64,000 bases of DNA, from NCBI GenBank assembly GCA_016235555.1, contig JACRKC010000004.1, positions 1 to 64,000 on the forward strand, given 5' to 3'. Position 1 is the first letter of the stretch; each line of letters starts with the position of its first letter. Below are positions 1,569-8,753 of this stretch, one piece after another. Source of the stretch: Verrucomicrobiota bacterium (lineage in GTDB: Bacteria > Verrucomicrobiota > Verrucomicrobiia > Opitutales > Opitutaceae). Both the position numbers and the translations under genes were made by a program. The notes beneath the pieces were generated by a model that was not told the origin of the DNA, did not search any database, and was given only the letters and a program-made list of their open reading frames with translations.

Positions 1569-2036
1569 TCACGCGGCCGGCTTCGCCGGCGGCGGCGGGA
1601 TGAACAGGCTGCCGGCGAGCACGATCAGCCCGGCGTTTTGCAGCAGCTTCGCGCACACGGCGACCTCGCCGGTCCCGCAGCCGCAATCGAAGCGGAGCGC
1701 GCAAAATGGCAGCGAACCCGTGCGCGACAGCGCCCACGCACGCAACGCCACGGCGCCGGTAAAACCCATGAGCAGCACCAACGCTAGCAGCGCCGTGCCG
1801 CCCGTGCGCACGCCGAGGAGCAGCAGCCCGCCGCAGAAGATCTCCACCCAGGGGAGCACGGCGGCGGTGAAGTTCAGCAGCAGCGGCGCCGTCACGAGAT
1901 CGAACTGGCGGACGAGTTTCAGGAATCCGACCGGATCGAGCGCCTTGACGACCCCGAGGTGGACGAACATCGCGCCGAGCGCGAGGCGGGCCAGCAGCGG
2001 GAGCCAGCGGCGAAGCGCGGATGGGTCGGGCTTCAT
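1569..2036 (-). CDS. MauE/DoxX-type redox-associated membrane protein
   Basis: 155 aa, about four transmembrane segments (around residues 15-35, 48-68, 72-95, 130-148). DoxX/MauE signs are the GAMFVHLGVVKALDPVGFL start and a cysteine group (FDCGCGTGEVAVC) before the last helix. Family members are inner-membrane proteins tied to thiol-disulfide or electron-transfer chemistry. The ATG at 2036 overlaps the stop of the rhodanese gene (ATGA), so translation is probably coupled. Longer in-frame reading upstream is Arg-rich shadow sequence and was trimmed. This is the last gene of a DUF1573-rhodanese-MauE operon. Confidence 0.8.
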   Translation of the reverse strand: MKPDPSALRRWLPLLARLALGAMFVHLGVVKALDPVGFLKLVRQFDLVTAPLLLNFTAAVLPWVEIFCGGLLLLGVRTGGTALLALVLLMGFTGAVALRAWALSRTGSLPFCALRFDCGCGTGEVAVCAKLLQNAGLIVLAGSLFIPPPPAKPAA

Positions 2037-2632
2037 GGGGCGACGCGGTGGCCGCCCCCGCGCGGGCCGGTTTCGAGCGGCAGGTTCTTCTCCCGCCACT
2101 CCGCGATGCCGCCGGCGTAGACGAACAGCTTGGCCGCGGGCACGCCAAACTGGAGGAGGTCGCCGGCGGCGAGTTCGCTGTCCTCGCACTCGCCGCCGTT
2201 GCAGTAGACCACGATGCGATCGGCGGCGGCGCAGGCGCCGAGGATGTCGGCCACGTATTTGTCGAGCCGGTAGTGATCGAACGGGCGGGCGCCGGGGATG
2301 TGGCCGGCGGCGTAGTGGGCCTCGTCGCGCGCGTCGATGAAGACGATCCGGCCCGCGGTGAACAGCGGGTCACGGAAGAACCCGACCGCACGCTCGTGCG
2401 ATAGCAGGGCGATGCCCTGTGCGCCGAGGCGGGCCCGGCGCGCCGCGCTCAGGCCGGAGGACGCGGTCGGGGCCGGCGTGACCGCGGCCACCGGTGCGAC
2501 GGCGGAAAAATAGTCGCGGCGCAGCGCCAGGCCGCGCGGCGAAACGGCGTTGGCGATCAGCCCCAGCGCCACACCGGCGAGCGCGACGGCGACGCTGTCG
2601 CGCAACGTGGCGCGGGCAGAAGACGCACTCAT
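2033..2632 (-). CDS. Membrane-anchored rhodanese-like sulfurtransferase
   Basis: 199 aa. An N-terminal transmembrane segment (about residues 12-30) places the domain outside the cytoplasmic membrane. The rhodanese domain covers about residues 85-190, with FIDARDEAHYAAGHIPGA (CH2A-type motif) and the active-site loop VVYCNGGECEDS carrying the catalytic Cys. The single-domain form suggests persulfide handling or single-domain sulfurtransferase activity. The ATG at 2632 is chosen over an in-frame GTG at 2653. The gene overlaps the MauE/DoxX gene by four bases and follows the DUF1573 gene by about 30 bases, so the three form one transcription unit. Confidence 0.85.
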   Translation of the reverse strand: MSASSARATLRDSVAVALAGVALGLIANAVSPRGLALRRDYFSAVAPVAAVTPAPTASSGLSAARRARLGAQGIALLSHERAVGFFRDPLFTAGRIVFIDARDEAHYAAGHIPGARPFDHYRLDKYVADILGACAAADRIVVYCNGGECEDSELAAGDLLQFGVPAAKLFVYAGGIAEWREKNLPLETGPRGGGHRVAP

Positions 2633-2662
2633 GGTGCCGGAGGCCAACGTCACGCCGGCCGG

Positions 2663-3703
2663 CTACCGGTGGCCCGTGCCGACGATCGGCACCTCGAACG
2701 AGGGCTGCTCGGGGTGGTTGGTTTTGCCGCGGACGAAGCGCTGGCCGGGGGCGTCCGCCTGGAAGCCGGGCGGAAACGTGACCATGATCGTGAACTGCTT
2801 CTTGTCCGGCGACGCATTGAGCGAAAACCCGGCCCCGGCGGCATCGACCCGCACGTCGGAGACCTGGAGATCGTAGCCGCGGTGGTTGAGCACGACGACG
2901 TAGCGCTTCTCCGGCGCGGCCAGTTTCCCCGCGGGCAGCATGATCTCCGTCGGGGCGACCTGCACGGGCGGGAGCAGGGTGGCGACGGCCTGCACCGTGA
3001 GTTCGGGCATCCTCGGATTCGAGGACTTCATCGTGATCCGCGCGGTGTGCGTGCCGTTGGCGATGGGTGGGACGGTGGTGAGGGTTAACTCGAATTCCCT
3101 GCCCGGCACCGTCTCCTTGAGGGTCGCGGCGAACACCGCCTTGTCGCAGCGCACGTCGGACACCTTGAGCTCGCCGGCGACTTGATTTCGGATCGTGACG
3201 GCCCGGCTGATGATCTGGGCCGGCTCCGTCAGCGCGGGAAAGATGACGACCGGCTGTGAGATTTTCACGGGCGTCCAGACATCGGCCTTGATCTCGAGCA
3301 CGGTCTGCGGGTGTGCGGGGTCGTTGGTTGAGACGGTGACCGTCTTCGTGACGCCGCTGGCGAATTGGGCCGTCTCGAGCTGGATGGGGATGGTGCCGGT
3401 GGCGCCCGGCGGGATCGTGCGCGTCCACTCGCCGGCGGTGGTGCAGCCGCAGGCCGGCTTGACGTCGACGATTTCCAAGGGCGCGTCGCCGGTGTTGCGG
3501 AGTTTGAAATCGTGCCGCACGGCCTCGCCCTGCGGCACGCTGCCGAAATCGTGGACCGGCGCGGCGATCTCGAGCCGGGGGCCGCCCGTGCGGGGCGTCG
3601 ATTGGACGGTCGGGGCGGGGGCCGCGGACGGAGCGGCGCCGAGGCCGGCGGTGGCGGCGGGCAGCAGAGCGAGTTGGACGCAGCGGCGGAGCGACGGGCG
3701 CAC
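2663..3703 (-). CDS. DUF1573 secreted protein with Ig-like (ASH/MSP-type) repeats
   Basis: About 346 aa from a GTG start. A signal-peptide-like segment (LALLPAATAGLGAA) is followed by a DUF1573 domain (HDFGSVPQGEAVRHDFKLRN, then the typical GDAPLEIVDVKPACGCT with its CGC). One or two further beta-sandwich repeats follow (SNDPAHPQTVLEIKADV; SSNPRMPELTVQAVATL). DUF1573 proteins are extracytoplasmic and of unknown role. No ATG is available in frame downstream of the 3803-3919 repeat, so the GTG at 3703 is the best start. It is the first gene of the operon with rhodanese and MauE/DoxX. Confidence 0.8.
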   Translation of the reverse strand: MRPSLRRCVQLALLPAATAGLGAAPSAAPAPTVQSTPRTGGPRLEIAAPVHDFGSVPQGEAVRHDFKLRNTGDAPLEIVDVKPACGCTTAGEWTRTIPPGATGTIPIQLETAQFASGVTKTVTVSTNDPAHPQTVLEIKADVWTPVKISQPVVIFPALTEPAQIISRAVTIRNQVAGELKVSDVRCDKAVFAATLKETVPGREFELTLTTVPPIANGTHTARITMKSSNPRMPELTVQAVATLLPPVQVAPTEIMLPAGKLAAPEKRYVVVLNHRGYDLQVSDVRVDAAGAGFSLNASPDKKQFTIMVTFPPGFQADAPGQRFVRGKTNHPEQPSFEVPIVGTGHR

Positions 3704-3802
3704 GTGGAGGCGGAGCAGGCGGGCGAAGGGAGGCACGGGAAGTGGGACCGGGGGCGAGTGTGGTGGGGGAGTGGGGGGTGCCAAGCCTCGTTTTGCGGCC
3801 AG

Positions 3803-3919
3803 GGCGCGGCTCACTTTTCTGCCCGGCGGAGGCGCGCTTTTCCAGGCGCCCAAGCCCGGCGGTTGAAAACCGCCGCTCCGTTGCTCCCGCCGAACGGCAG
3901 GAAACTGAGATGCGCCCTG
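3803..3919. repeat. About 117-bp composite palindromic element (family 5), copy 1
   Basis: The element contains a hairpin around GGCGCGCTTTTCCAGGCGCC, then CGGCGGTTGAAAACCGCCG, flanked by inverse arms (GCTCACTTTTCTGCCCGGCG on the left, CGGCAGGAAACTGAGATGCG on the right). Other copies lie at 28603-28717, 44749-44873, 47014-47080 (half) and 50335-50452. It fills the gap between the DUF1573 gene and rnpB. Confidence 0.8.
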
Positions 3920-3978
3920 GCAGGGGCGTGGTGACACCGGCTTGCCATTGGGGGACGGAGTTGTTCGCTAGCCTCCTT

Positions 3979-4433
3979 AGCTTTGGGGCCTGGTCGTCGC
4001 TCCGAGTTCTTTGATCCCAAGATGCGGGCTAAACCCGCGTCCGTTTTACGGATATTCGGAGAGGAAAGTCCGGACTCCGCAGGGCAGGATGCCGCATGAG
4101 CTTCACCGCAAGTGCGGGCGGCGCACGTCAAGGTGCGTTGACGGACAGTGTCACAGAGAACATACCGCCGCGCGGGCAACCGCGTGGTAAGGGTGAAAAG
4201 GTGGGGTAAGAGCCCACCGCGCCGGCAGCAATGGCGGCGGCACGACAAACCCCGTCCGGTGCAAGGCAAAATAGGTGACTGGGCGGCCCGTCCGATAGTC
4301 ACGGGTATGCCGCAGCCTGCTTCGCTCCAAGTGGAGCTCCGCAGGCCAGGGCCCCGCAAGGGGACCTGAGAGAAATGACGGCCGAAGCGCCGCAAGGCGC
4401 GGAACAGAATCCGGCTTACCGGCCCCAAAGCTA
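3979..4433 (+). ncRNA. rnpB: RNase P RNA (bacterial type A)
   Basis: The catalytic RNA that matures tRNA 5' ends. Conserved blocks visible in order are GAGGAAAGTCCGG at 4061-4073, CAGAGAACATACCGCC near 4153-4169, GGGTGAAAAGGTGGGGTAAG near 4191, and ACAGAATCCGGCTTA at 4404-4418. The ends pair (AGCTTTGGGGCC at 3979-3990 with GGCCCCAAAGCT at 4421-4432), giving the P1 stem and fixing the borders within a few bases. The length of about 455 nt is at the long end for this RNA, partly due to an extended hairpin around 4308-4370. Confidence 0.95.
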
Positions 4434-4557: not shown

Positions 4558-5016
4558 CTACTTCTTCACCACGAGCACGCCCTTCATGCCGATCTGGCAG
4601 TGGGCGGGGAAACTGCAGAGGAAGGGATATTCGCCCGGCTCGGTGGGGGCGGTGAAGCTGGCTTCGCCAGTCTCGTTGGGGCCGAGGAGGCCGATCGTGG
4701 CGAGAACCTTGTCTTTCATTTTTTCCGGGATGTGGCCGTTGCCGGCTTAGGGGGCGCCGGCGTTGGCGAAGGCGATCGGATCGGTGCCCTTGGCGAGGAG
4801 CACCCAGTTGTGGCCCATGACGCTTTTCGGGAGTGTGCAGGCGTTGGTGAGCACGACCTTGATCGGCTCGCCGGGGGCGGCGGTGATCGACGCGACGTCG
4901 AACTTCATCTGGTTGCCCTCGCCGGATTTGATTTTCACGACGCGCGGGCCATCCGCCGCGAATAGCAACGCAGAGGTGGCGAGGGCGAGGAGCGGGAGGA
5001 AGAGTTTGGATCTCAT
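4558..5016 (-). pseudogene. Auracyanin/azurin-type blue copper protein with in-frame TAA
   Basis: Read through, this is 152 codons encoding a periplasmic cupredoxin: signal peptide (MRSKLFLPLLALATSALLFA), then a beta-sandwich with all four type-1 copper ligands, His69 (in VMGHNW), Cys134 (in PFLCSF), His139 (in PAHC) and Met144 (in IGMKG). The C-x4-H-x4-M spacing is like auracyanin. An in-frame TAA at 4747-4749 (codon 90) interrupts it, and the frame is otherwise open and conserved on both sides to the TAG at 4558. The truncated 89-residue product would lack Cys, His and Met ligands. It is third in an operon after the decaheme cytochrome and outer-membrane barrel genes, so the intact form would be a soluble electron carrier. 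It is either a recent nonsense mutation or a sequencing error. Confidence 0.8.
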
Positions 5017-5025
5017 GGGAAAGGT

Positions 5026-5048
5026 CGGCGGTCATAGACCGCCGCTGC
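5026..5048. repeat. REP family 1, single hairpin
   Basis: CGGCGGTCATAGACCGCCGC followed by TGC is the inverse of the GTAGCGGCGGTC hairpin, with the foot slightly changed (GCAG). It occupies the short gap between the barrel gene and the cupredoxin gene inside the operon. Confidence 0.75.
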
Positions 5049-5066
5049 GGCGATGGTGGCAGCGGA

Positions 5067-7742
5067 TCAGAGTTTGATTTGGAACATCACACCATACCAG
5101 TTGACGCGGTAGGCCATCGGGCCGCCGTCGAGGCCGACGACCGTGGGCGCGTTGGCGGGGTTGGGTGCGACCACCGGTGAACCGTCGAGGTTGCGATAGT
5201 GCCAGTCGCGAATCGTCTCCCATTGGTTGCGGTAAACGAGCCGCGCCGAGAGCCGGGGTGTGAGCGGGAAGCGCAGGCTGGCATCGAGGTAGCTGGCGTC
5301 CATGGCCATGTCAGGCACGCGGTCGCCGGCGAAGACGGCGTTGGCGGCGTTGATCGCACCGCCGATCGCGTATTGGTAGGCGAGACGCGTGCGGCCGAGG
5401 GTGTAGGAGTAGTCGAGGTTGAACGTGGCTTTGCCAAGCTCCTGCTTGAAGCCGAGTCCGGCGACGTGATTGCGATCGGTGCTCCTGGCGCCCCAGGCGT
5501 TGCCGAGCGAATAGAACGGGCCGCCCGGTGTGGAGCCGATGGTGGCGGCGTTTTCGGGCGTGATGACGCCGAGCGGCGAGACGACCCCGATGGTGACGTT
5601 GCCGGCCTGCTGGATCGAGGCCTGACGGACACGGCTTTGCTGATACGAATAGAAACTGTAGATGTTCTGCTTTGGTGACGGCTGGTAGTTGAGGTCGAGA
5701 TTGGCCGAGTCGGAGCTGTCTTTGGCGCGGCCGAACGCGGCGTCGGGGTAACGTGACTCGCGGAACTGGAACGAGAGCCCGGCGTCGAGATTGGGGCGCA
5801 GCATGGTGTCGAGGCGGACGTTCACGATGTGCTGGTTGCGATCGGAGAGCTCGTAGTTGCGCAGGGCGCCGTTGTTGCGGACGGCCCAGGAGGTGACGTT
5901 GGTGCCAACAGTGGTCGGCATCGCGATGATCGCGGCGCTCATCGCGTCCTCGTAGTAAGCGGTGAGGTAGCGGCTGCCGCGGCGCTGGCCGTATTCGTAG
6001 GAGGTGCGAAGGGTGCTGTTGAGCGGAAGGGCGCGGTTGACGTAGCCAAGCTTGAAGCGGTCGTCCCAGACCTTGGCGCGCTCGCGGTTGGTGCGTTCGA
6101 CGGTGTCACGCTCGTAAGAGCCGGTGAAGTTGGCGGTCTTCGAGAGCAGGTAGTCGGCGGTGGGACCGAAGCGATATTGTTTCGAGGAATAGATCTTGTT
6201 GCTGATCACGACGCTGCCCGTGGGTGTCGGTGCGCCGGCGAAGAGCACGCCGCCGGAGCCGGTGGCATCGTTGAGGGGTCGGCCCCAGACGCCGGTGAGG
6301 CCGGCATAGGAGAGGCCGCGGGTCTGCGCGCCGGCCGTGGCGGCGTCGGCGTCGACGTAAACGGCGTTGGGATTCACCGCGTAGTAGGGATCGCTGTTGT
6401 TATCGGACTCGTTGAAACGGCCCTTCAACTTGACGTTGAGTTCGGCGGAAGGGTTGAGCGAAAGCGTGAGGTCAGCCGTGCGCGTATCGATCTTGCCCCT
6501 GGCCGTGGGACGGCTGAGCGAGCCGACCGAACTCCAATCGCCGCCGGGCAGAATCGTGACGTTGGCGGAGGTGATGCCGGCGACGGTGGTGTAGGGAATG
6601 AGATTGTCGTTCTGGCGCCAGGTGCCTGCGGCGACGACCGCGGTGATCGAACCGTTGTAGAGATCGGGAAGTTTGCGCGTGTATTCGGCGCGGGCGTTGT
6701 GCGAGGTGTTGCTGGGCGTGAGGTCGAAGCGGCCGACGACGTAGGCGCCGGCGGCGGGTGTGGTCGTGAAGCCTTGGGGCGCGATACGGTAGGGCTCCTG
6801 GAAGGTGAGCGTGTCGATCTTGTTGTCGAAGATCGAGGACGACCACCGGAAGTTGAACGCGTTGAGCCCGGCGGCGTAGGTCACGCCGGCGGATAGGTCC
6901 TTGGTGTCGTAGTCGACCGGCTCGGGAATTTCGATCGGGGCGGTGCCGCCGTTGTTACCCCAGACGGCGCCGAGGGGACGGGCGCCTTTGCGTTCTTCGA
7001 GCGCGTAGCTGGCGTAAACTTTCCAGGCGGCGGAGAGCGTGAGATCGAGGCGGGCGCCGTAGCGCTTGCGGGTCAGCGAAAGCGAGGTGCGGTTGGCGGA
7101 ATTGGCGGCGGCGGCGGCGACCGCGGCGTTGTCGGCGGTGGTCGAGGCCGTGCCGCCGGGCGTGAGGCCGGTGAGGAGGACGAGGTTGCCGGTGCCGAGG
7201 CCGGACCAAAGGGTCTTGTAGCTGTCGGTGAAGACGTGGGGCGTCTCGCTGAAGTAGAGCTTCAACGTCCACGAATTGGCGCGGCCGAAGTTGACGCCGT
7301 AGTATTGGTCGCGCCGGCCGGCGGCGCCGCCCGAGAGGCCGAAGAAGCTGCCGTCGGCCTTCTTCATCGCGAGGTCGAAGTTGTTTACGTAGGCGCCCTG
7401 GTCGAAATCCTGATACATCCGATACCGGGCGTTGCGTTCGTCGGCGTCGCCGCCGATGTAGCCGACTTCGAGCTGGCCGGAGTATTCCCAACCGGAGGCG
7501 GACTTGGCGATATCCTCGAGCTTGGGCACAACGAGCGGCCACTTGAACATCTGGCCGGTGGGCGTGTGTTTGATCGCGGCCCACTCGGGATCGGCGGAAC
7601 GCGAGGCGTTGACGGAGGAGGTCTCCTTGTTGGAGAGCGTAGTGCCGACGCCGGCGCTGGTGGTGGCGAACGGCGAGGCGACGAGGCGCGCGGCCGCAGC
7701 GGCGGCGAGAGCGGTGAGGGTGAGACGGAAAATCGTTTTCAT
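5067..7742 (-). CDS. MtrB/PioB-family outer-membrane beta-barrel for a decaheme cytochrome
   Basis: 891 aa with signal peptide (MKTIFRLTLTALAAAAAARL). After a short N-terminal linker, the chain is many alternating amphipathic strands (SGWEYSGQLEVGYIGGDADE, YYGVNFGRANSWTLKLYF, and so on), typical of the MtrB/PioB porin that sheathes an MtrA-type decaheme cytochrome and carries electrons across the outer membrane. The N-terminal CXXC seen in some Shewanella homologues is absent. The assignment rests on the barrel pattern, the length and the immediately upstream MtrA-type gene (24 bases between them). It ends in FQIKL rather than a terminal aromatic residue. The pairing implies extracellular electron exchange, but direction and substrate cannot be read from the sequence. 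Confidence 0.85.
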   Translation of the reverse strand: MKTIFRLTLTALAAAAAARLVASPFATTSAGVGTTLSNKETSSVNASRSADPEWAAIKHTPTGQMFKWPLVVPKLEDIAKSASGWEYSGQLEVGYIGGDADERNARYRMYQDFDQGAYVNNFDLAMKKADGSFFGLSGGAAGRRDQYYGVNFGRANSWTLKLYFSETPHVFTDSYKTLWSGLGTGNLVLLTGLTPGGTASTTADNAAVAAAAANSANRTSLSLTRKRYGARLDLTLSAAWKVYASYALEERKGARPLGAVWGNNGGTAPIEIPEPVDYDTKDLSAGVTYAAGLNAFNFRWSSSIFDNKIDTLTFQEPYRIAPQGFTTTPAAGAYVVGRFDLTPSNTSHNARAEYTRKLPDLYNGSITAVVAAGTWRQNDNLIPYTTVAGITSANVTILPGGDWSSVGSLSRPTARGKIDTRTADLTLSLNPSAELNVKLKGRFNESDNNSDPYYAVNPNAVYVDADAATAGAQTRGLSYAGLTGVWGRPLNDATGSGGVLFAGAPTPTGSVVISNKIYSSKQYRFGPTADYLLSKTANFTGSYERDTVERTNRERAKVWDDRFKLGYVNRALPLNSTLRTSYEYGQRRGSRYLTAYYEDAMSAAIIAMPTTVGTNVTSWAVRNNGALRNYELSDRNQHIVNVRLDTMLRPNLDAGLSFQFRESRYPDAAFGRAKDSSDSANLDLNYQPSPKQNIYSFYSYQQSRVRQASIQQAGNVTIGVVSPLGVITPENAATIGSTPGGPFYSLGNAWGARSTDRNHVAGLGFKQELGKATFNLDYSYTLGRTRLAYQYAIGGAINAANAVFAGDRVPDMAMDASYLDASLRFPLTPRLSARLVYRNQWETIRDWHYRNLDGSPVVAPNPANAPTVVGLDGGPMAYRVNWYGVMFQIKL

Positions 7743-7766
7743 GGTCGGTTGGATTTTTCGTCGAGG

Positions 7767-8753
7767 TTAGCGTTGGAAGCGGGCGCCCGCGGGGTGGTTG
7801 CTACCGTGGATCTGCGAGTGGCAGTTCTGGCAGGAGCGGCCGATCATGCGGCTGTTGGGAGCGGCCCCGCCGCCGAGCAGCTGGCCGGCGTTGTAGAGAT
7901 TGGTCTGGTGATTCGTGTTGTCGTGGCACTGCTGGCACTGGAAGGGCCGCGCCACGGTCAGGAGCTTGTCGTGGTTGGAGCCGTGCGGGCTGTGGCAGGT
8001 GAGGCAGTTGTCCCGCACCGGGGCGTGTTCCCAGAGGAACGGTCCGCGTTTCTCGGCGTGGCAGTTGTAGCAGAGCTCGTTGACGGAGTCGGCCTTCATG
8101 AGGGCCTTCGCGGTGGAGCCGTGGGGATTGTGGCAATCGACGCACGACATCTTCCCCTCGGGCAGCGGCATGTGGGAGCGCTTGGCGAACTCGGCGCGCT
8201 GCTGTTGGTGGCAGGTGTAGCAGGTGTCGTTGATCGTCTGTTTTTTCAGCAAGCCGGCCTCGGAGACCTTGGCCATCGGGTTATGGCAGTCAGAACAAGC
8301 GAGCTGGTTGCGCGCGTGCGTGGAGCTGTCCCAGAACATGTGGTTGCCGCCGGAGTGGCATTGCATGCACTGCGCGTTTTGCGTCGCGACAGGCGTGCCC
8401 CATTCCTTGGTGAAGCCGACGAGCGAGGGGCGGTTCGCGGGATCGGAGGGATTTTTGAGATGGTTCGAGCCCGGGCCGTGGCAGGCCTCGCAGCTTTTTT
8501 GCTGGAGTTCGTTTTTCGGGTTCTTTCGGAAGATGTCGGCGTGCACCGTGTGGGTGAACTGCTTGTTCTGCGGTGCGTGGCAGGCGATGCACACGGCCTC
8601 ACCGACGTAGGTCGCGCCGCCGTTGAGGGCGGGCGTCGCGGCGGGGGTCGTGGGACGGGTTTGGGCGACGATACTCGAAACGAGAGCCACGGTGCCGAGG
8701 ATGGCGGCGGCTGCGCCGAAGCGCAGCGAGAGGAGGGGGAATCGCGATCTCAT
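7767..8753 (-). CDS. DmsE/MtrA-type decaheme c-type cytochrome
   Basis: 328 aa with signal peptide (FGAAAAILGTVALVSSIVAQ) and ten CXXCH heme motifs, in order CIACH, CEACH, CMQCH, CSDCH, CYTCH, CVDCH, CYNCH, CLTCH, CQQCH, CQNCH. Length, heme number and even spacing match the periplasmic MtrA/DmsE/PioA family, which sits inside an MtrB-type porin. The ATG at 8753 is preferred over an in-frame TTG at 8771 because it starts the signal peptide directly. It is the first gene of the operon cytochrome-barrel-cupredoxin. No surface decaheme (MtrC/OmcA) or CymA-like quinol oxidase is seen nearby. Confidence 0.93.
   Translation of the reverse strand: MRSRFPLLSLRFGAAAAILGTVALVSSIVAQTRPTTPAATPALNGGATYVGEAVCIACHAPQNKQFTHTVHADIFRKNPKNELQQKSCEACHGPGSNHLKNPSDPANRPSLVGFTKEWGTPVATQNAQCMQCHSGGNHMFWDSSTHARNQLACSDCHNPMAKVSEAGLLKKQTINDTCYTCHQQQRAEFAKRSHMPLPEGKMSCVDCHNPHGSTAKALMKADSVNELCYNCHAEKRGPFLWEHAPVRDNCLTCHSPHGSNHDKLLTVARPFQCQQCHDNTNHQTNLYNAGQLLGGGAAPNSRMIGRSCQNCHSQIHGSNHPAGARFQR

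Follow-up and report, generated by a model that had tools for sequence, protein, structure and literature searches.

We found that a 64,000-nucleotide stretch of DNA from a member of the Opitutaceae (hereafter the window) encodes an MtrAB-type outer-membrane conduit followed by the frame of an azurin/auracyanin-like cupredoxin, and that this trio of genes recurs in related genomes, although the copper gene of the window is interrupted by a stop codon. We give about even chances to the reading that the locus represents an MtrAB conduit devoid of MtrC, in which a high-potential periplasmic copper carrier most plausibly links MtrA to a caa3-type oxidase, with electrons being taken up by the cell. 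The genome containing the window is a draft assembly of 8.0 Mb in 140 contigs. The features discussed below are the following:

7767..8753, minus strand: decaheme c-type cytochrome of the MtrA/DmsE/MtoA/PioA type, 328 aa, with a signal-peptide-like N terminus and ten CXXCH motifs
5067..7742, minus strand: MtrB/PioB outer-membrane barrel, 891 aa, assigned by PF11854, TIGR03509 and fold
4558..5016, minus strand: azurin/auracyanin-like cupredoxin frame, 152 codons plus the final stop, interrupted, with a signal peptide
4747..4749, minus strand: in-frame TAA at codon 90 of the cupredoxin frame, placed by codon alignment
4585..4617, minus strand: copper-ligand loop C-SFPA-H-CQIG-M (C-x4-H-x4-M), downstream of the stop
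4027..4428, plus strand: RNase P RNA (class A), Rfam RF00010, 178.8 bits

Decaheme cytochrome and MtrB/PioB barrel

The preliminary description of this DNA had placed a decaheme cytochrome, a barrel and a copper protein consecutively on one strand. This layout was borne out: on the minus strand the cytochrome is followed 24 bp later by the barrel, and the barrel 50 bp later by the copper frame. The RNase P RNA gene is convergent with the end of the cupredoxin frame and marks the boundary of the cassette rather than being one of its members. Farther on, positions 1569-3937 (minus strand) encode, one after another, a DUF1573/OS_HP2-like protein, a rhodanese and a MauE-like membrane protein, the frames of the latter two overlapping from 2033 to 2189 of the window on the same strand.

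The assignment of the cytochrome to the MtrA/DmsE type rests, besides its ten heme-binding motifs, on a profile search with TIGR03508 of the DmsE family (266 bits, cut-off 192) and on sequence similarity to the MtrA chain of 6R2Q, a crystal structure of MtrAB (6r2q_A, E=1.8e-68). An alignment of 20 members has a mean column identity of 78%. The barrel scores 307 bits against PF11854 (MtrB_PioB; cut-off 23) and 255 bits against TIGR03509 (cut-off 240), and matches MtrB of 6R2Q by sequence with E=1.8e-10. Its AlphaFold2 model, computed with 18 homologues as input, has 26 long strands by our own count, equal to the number of strands in MtrB (PMC7198977). Confidence in the model is moderate (pLDDT 59), and many of its loops are unresolved. 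In a Foldseek search the closest structure to this predicted fold is 6r2q_B (E=1.8e-31, TM 0.81 by target length), with the runner-up at 4e-9. Thus, sequence and fold agree in placing the barrel with MtrB/PioB, a point on which the preliminary description had made its proposal depend.

Conservation and history of the trio

To define the distribution of the trio, we surveyed 252 genomes of the family, taking a strong match to MtrB_PioB as the criterion for a barrel. Such barrels are present in 22 of these genomes; evenly drawn samples of the order (372 genomes) and the phylum (387 genomes) added none beyond the family. A scan of genome contigs for the trio likewise turned up nothing but a close relative. 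A copper gene lies directly behind the barrel in 13 of the 22 genomes and is intact in 12 of them; it is absent in eight, that is, from 8 of 21 resolved loci, the remaining locus (G753) being on a contig that stops 162 bp past the barrel. The trio resides on a single contig in 11 of the 13 genomes, while in G758 the contig begins inside the barrel and in G867 the genes are split over two contigs. Order, strand and close spacing as seen in the window are repeated in 12 further genomes, so that the trio is not a chance arrangement. Its conservation in relatives was the other point on which the initial proposal hinged. Among named relatives, the Opitutae MAG RH-23may17-1088 (L015, genome G762) of the same family comes closest, with a barrel that is 84% identical and a cupredoxin that is intact; the host had been described as Verrucomicrobiota-like, which fits.

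Azurins as such are widespread in the family, the azurin profile having matches in 203 of the 252 genomes. The 13 best of these matches (at least 230 bits, the next one scoring 191) are all in genomes with the barrel. In a phylogenetic tree that includes 18 other azurins of the family, all 13 cupredoxins linked to MtrAB group together in a clade of their own (support 100/100). On the barrel tree, in turn, the presence of the cupredoxin requires five changes, four of which are forced by well-supported branches. Because the cupredoxins form a single clade and yet five changes are needed on the barrel tree, the history of the copper gene is one of a single gain followed by several losses. A search of the eight cassettes without a cupredoxin found no remnants of the copper gene.

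Genes flanking the cassette are common only within small groups of genomes, for example, G026/G774, G743/G750 (together with part of G754) and G866/G867, and those flanking it in the window are common to no other genome, the closest relative included. G026 and G774 have a common downstream neighbour (95% identical), and G774 lacks the cupredoxin. Since the neighbouring genes mostly differ between genomes, the three-gene unit appears to be a mobile cassette. Plasmid records yielded a single distant decaheme cytochrome (Photobacterium, 33%) and thus lend no support to a plasmid as its vehicle. Neither do tRNA genes appear to serve as integration sites, a cassette-adjacent tRNA being found in G777 only. 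In G754 (locus L112), a one-heme cytochrome and a cytochrome of octaheme type, with seven CXXCH motifs counted, are encoded behind a cupredoxin-less MtrAB cassette, at a distance of about 2.3-3.5 kb.

The MtrAB-linked cupredoxins

All four type-1 copper ligands (His, Cys, His and Met) are present in each of the 12 intact copies. The ligand loop of the MtrAB-linked proteins, C-x4-H-x4-M, has the spacing of Roseiflexus auracyanin (6kol, CTYPAHYAGGM), whereas that of Pseudomonas azurin (C-x4-H-x3-M) is one residue shorter. A cysteine directly following the second ligand histidine sets these proteins apart, occurring in 12 of the 13 MtrAB-linked cupredoxins and in none of the 18 other azurins, which have Phe, Tyr or Ala at this position. 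The modelled structure (pLDDT 87.5) finds its matches among azurins and auracyanins. Many other azurins of the family have a simple lipobox pattern; because this pattern is absent in 12 of the 13 MtrAB-linked copies, a soluble periplasmic carrier fits these sequences.

Those azurins and auracyanins that have been characterised carry electrons at high potential. The copper protein of the cassette has in common with them the cupredoxin fold and, with 6kol, the loop spacing, and the window genome encodes alternative complex III. It differs from them in being encoded with MtrAB and in missing the cut-off of the azurin equivalog TIGR02695 (54 bits, cut-off 105).

The stop codon in the copper gene

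In the window the copper frame is open only from 5016 to 4747, corresponding to 89 aa. When the frame is read through the TAA it scores 48.7 bits against PF00127 (cut-off 21), so that the type-1 copper protein announced in the preliminary description was recovered as an azurin/auracyanin-like frame. However, three of its four copper ligands lie behind the stop (4749-4747), which that description had overlooked: the 89-residue product keeps the first His ligand and lacks the Cys, the second His and the Met. Codon 90 is GAC, GAG and GAG in three relatives. The 62 codons after the TAA differ from those of the closest relative by nine amino-acid and 18 silent changes (dN 0.066, dS 0.66; dN/dS about 0.1), which argues that the downstream half of the gene was under selection until very recently. 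A frameshift can be dismissed, as there is a single in-frame TAA and the frame is open on both sides; so can selenocysteine or other recoding, the codon being TAA and not TGA. Read-through of the TAA is not likely. On the sequence evidence the stop would then be either a recent nonsense change or a wrong base call.

The second of these alternatives, an assembly or consensus error in a trio that is intact in the organism, falls just short of even odds in our estimate and is separate from the question of mechanism. The window copy is the one interrupted copy among the 13, a single codon is altered in an assembly fragmented as described above, purifying selection is evident downstream of the stop, and the branch leading to the window copy in the tree is no longer than that of its sister. 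A real mutation, in turn, is suggested by the fact that a change of GAC or GAG to TAA takes two base substitutions (one would suffice only from a GAA ancestor), by nearby sequence that carries no other signs of error and by the clean losses among relatives, which mark the gene as expendable. If the stop is real, the conduit of the window has no copper protein of its own and would need another carrier, which might be, for example, the oxidase-linked azurin described below or a cytochrome.

The same losses, together with the stop, bear on whether the copper protein belongs to the electron path at all. It might be a passenger of the operon serving, for example, periplasmic copper handling or protection, as its repeated loss and the interrupted window copy would lead one to expect. 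We consider this improbable: the type-1 ligands are retained without exception in the intact copies, a single cupredoxin clade has stayed bound to the MtrAB operon while the flanking genes changed, and the low dN/dS after the stop codon is that of a constrained protein. Still, the absence of the copper gene from 8 of 21 cassettes and its disruption in the window speak against the copper-carrier reading, and because of them the conduit seems able to persist without the copper gene in some lineages.

Respiratory context and possible direction of electron flow

The second azurin of the window genome is encoded divergently from a cytochrome c oxidase operon, in which CoxB (182 bits) has a heme motif and CoxA scores 699 bits; an oxidase of the caa3 type is present. 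Linkage of this kind is common in the family, coxB being located within 1.5 kb of 11 of the 17 other azurin loci examined. The window genome also contains a complete operon for alternative complex III (ActD, 214 bits). None of the 22 genomes with the barrel encodes an OmcA/MtrC cytochrome (TIGR03507) above the cut-off. In-frame TGA codons in weak MtrC matches raised the possibility of selenoproteins, but the one match read in detail (L121) proved to be ActA, the pentaheme subunit of that complex, and ends at an ordinary stop.

These observations bear on how the copper protein might be used. The closest parallel in the literature is MtoD of Sideroxydans lithotrophicus ES-1, the potential of which was judged too high for the quinone pool; a terminal oxidase was proposed as the recipient of its electrons (PMC13390432). 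We infer the redox potential of the copper protein, its docking, the direction of electron flow and the substrate. In the reading that we prefer, a decaheme wire would sit inside the 26-strand barrel, accompanied, where the copper gene is intact, by a dedicated soluble periplasmic protein of the azurin/auracyanin type. This protein would most likely take the slot that MtoD or the PioC HiPIP occupies in iron-oxidising systems and, as a high-potential one-electron carrier at the periplasmic end, would pass electrons from MtrA towards the caa3 oxidase and alternative complex III. Electrons of extracellular origin, from Fe(II), reduced humics or other cells, could in this way enter oxygen respiration. 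Uptake is favoured by the oxidase linkage of the sister azurins, the operon for alternative complex III, the auracyanin-like loop, the lack of MtrC/OmcA and the analogy with MtoD. Lithoautotrophy as a general role is not supported, since RuBisCO-family proteins occur in just 3 of the 22 genomes with the barrel (the window genome, G866 and G867). The one in the window genome is about 419 aa long and is encoded on contig C130 at 86414-87247 (L131).

The window genome also encodes inner-membrane multiheme proteins of the reductive type and two further porin-cytochrome clusters, located as follows:

L041 3879-7787 (contig C1) and L042 718-3264 (contig C127): NapC/NirT-like protein of 522 aa and multiheme-b561 proteins of 776 and 848 aa
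L014 9357-12262 (contig C10) and L042 9494-12510 (contig C127): porin-cytochrome clusters

The multiheme-b561 fusions have 11 (776 aa) and 13 (848 aa) CXXCH motifs and, together with the NapC/NirT-like protein, resemble inner-membrane electron exits of the ImcH/CbcL type. The clusters on C10 and C127 encode roughly octaheme cytochromes (CXXCH counts of eight and seven, respectively) and barrels with little or no Pfam similarity. Also on C127, L042 5456-8835 contains, beside an octaheme-porin cluster, a gene for a DsrP-like NrfD protein (420 bits, cut-off 350) that has a cyclic-nucleotide-binding domain as its fusion partner; genes for an iron-sulfur protein and for a cytochrome with four hemes adjoin it.

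Because the genome encodes these inner-membrane multihemes and the two octaheme-porin conduits, electrons may reach MtrAB from the quinone pool. The conduit would then work in the reductive direction, from menaquinone through the NapC/NirT-like or multiheme-b561 proteins and MtrAB to humics or Fe(III), and the copper protein would be an accessory carrier, a buffer for electrons or a link employed solely with high-potential acceptors. The dispensability of the copper gene agrees with such a role, as does the proposal that porin-octaheme clusters of Verrucomicrobia from a humic bog reduce humics or Fe(III) (PMC5615132). We nevertheless give the reductive conduit less weight than uptake, because an extracellular MtrC/OmcA partner was not found above the cut-off in the 22 genomes, high-potential azurins and auracyanins are poorly matched to low-potential Fe(III) oxides and the sister azurins are tied to an oxidase. 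The preliminary description allowed for copper passing electrons towards the inner membrane or away from it; on balance, our findings favour a high-potential connection with the oxidase chain, with uptake as the more probable direction.

A broader scenario, to which we attach clearly less weight than to the uptake reading of the locus itself, is that copper-linked MtrAB spread among Opitutae as a three-gene cassette, the auracyanin-like protein docking on MtrA and feeding the caa3 oxidase, and thereby brought O2-coupled electron uptake to heterotrophic Verrucomicrobiota. A dedicated copper carrier acting with MtrAB would, if true, imply that the carrier slot, filled by heme or iron-sulfur proteins in known systems, is exchangeable, and its potential would point to the direction of electron uptake. 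MtrAB conduits would also extend to Opitutae, a group absent from the published surveys that we consulted in the open-access literature. Finally, the intact, lost and interrupted copper genes of close relatives constitute a natural set for testing the contribution of the third partner.

Comparison with known systems

PioABC of Rhodopseudomonas palustris consists of a decaheme cytochrome, a barrel (PF11854) and a small high-potential periplasmic carrier, in an order like that of the trio. PioC, however, is a HiPIP iron-sulfur protein of a phototrophic host, whereas the third gene here is a PF00127 cupredoxin frame. MtrA and MtrB of Shewanella MtrCAB (6R2Q) are homologous to the window proteins by sequence, MtrB also by predicted fold, but the Shewanella system includes the extracellular MtrC, with no counterpart above the cut-off in the 22 genomes with the barrel. 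A cupredoxin as a third partner had been suggested in the preliminary description to represent a distinct arrangement. This holds in that the trio is found in 13 genomes and no MtrC/OmcA above the cut-off in any of the 22; at the same time, the partner is not obligatory, being absent from 8 of 21 cassettes and interrupted in the window. The system of Sideroxydans lithotrophicus ES-1 (MtoAB with MtoD, PmcA and ImoA) likewise combines a decaheme cytochrome and an MtrB-type barrel without MtrC and has a small periplasmic one-electron carrier nearby. MtoD is a monoheme cytochrome, whereas the carrier here would be a type-1 copper protein, and the cassette lacks an ImoA/CymA gene.

Within the phylum, the clusters of He et al. 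2017 (PMC5615132) also place a porin beside a multiheme cytochrome and are resembled by those on C10 and C127 of the window genome. They differ from the MtrAB cassette in having eight rather than ten hemes and a barrel other than PF11854. According to that study, Shewanella- and Geobacter-type systems are absent from its genomes, and it does not mention cupredoxins. As a further published analogy, cupredoxins rise together with MtoA on magnetite, although they are encoded elsewhere and are in part multicopper oxidases (PMC12016527). Searches of the open-access literature, a limited library, for MtrAB with azurin or for extracellular electron transfer (EET) in Opitutaceae yielded no description of such an arrangement. 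Thus, while MtrAB, PioABC, MtoAB and the verrucomicrobial porin-octaheme clusters were already known, an MtrAB cassette in which a cupredoxin gene is conserved in third place is, with respect to that literature, new.
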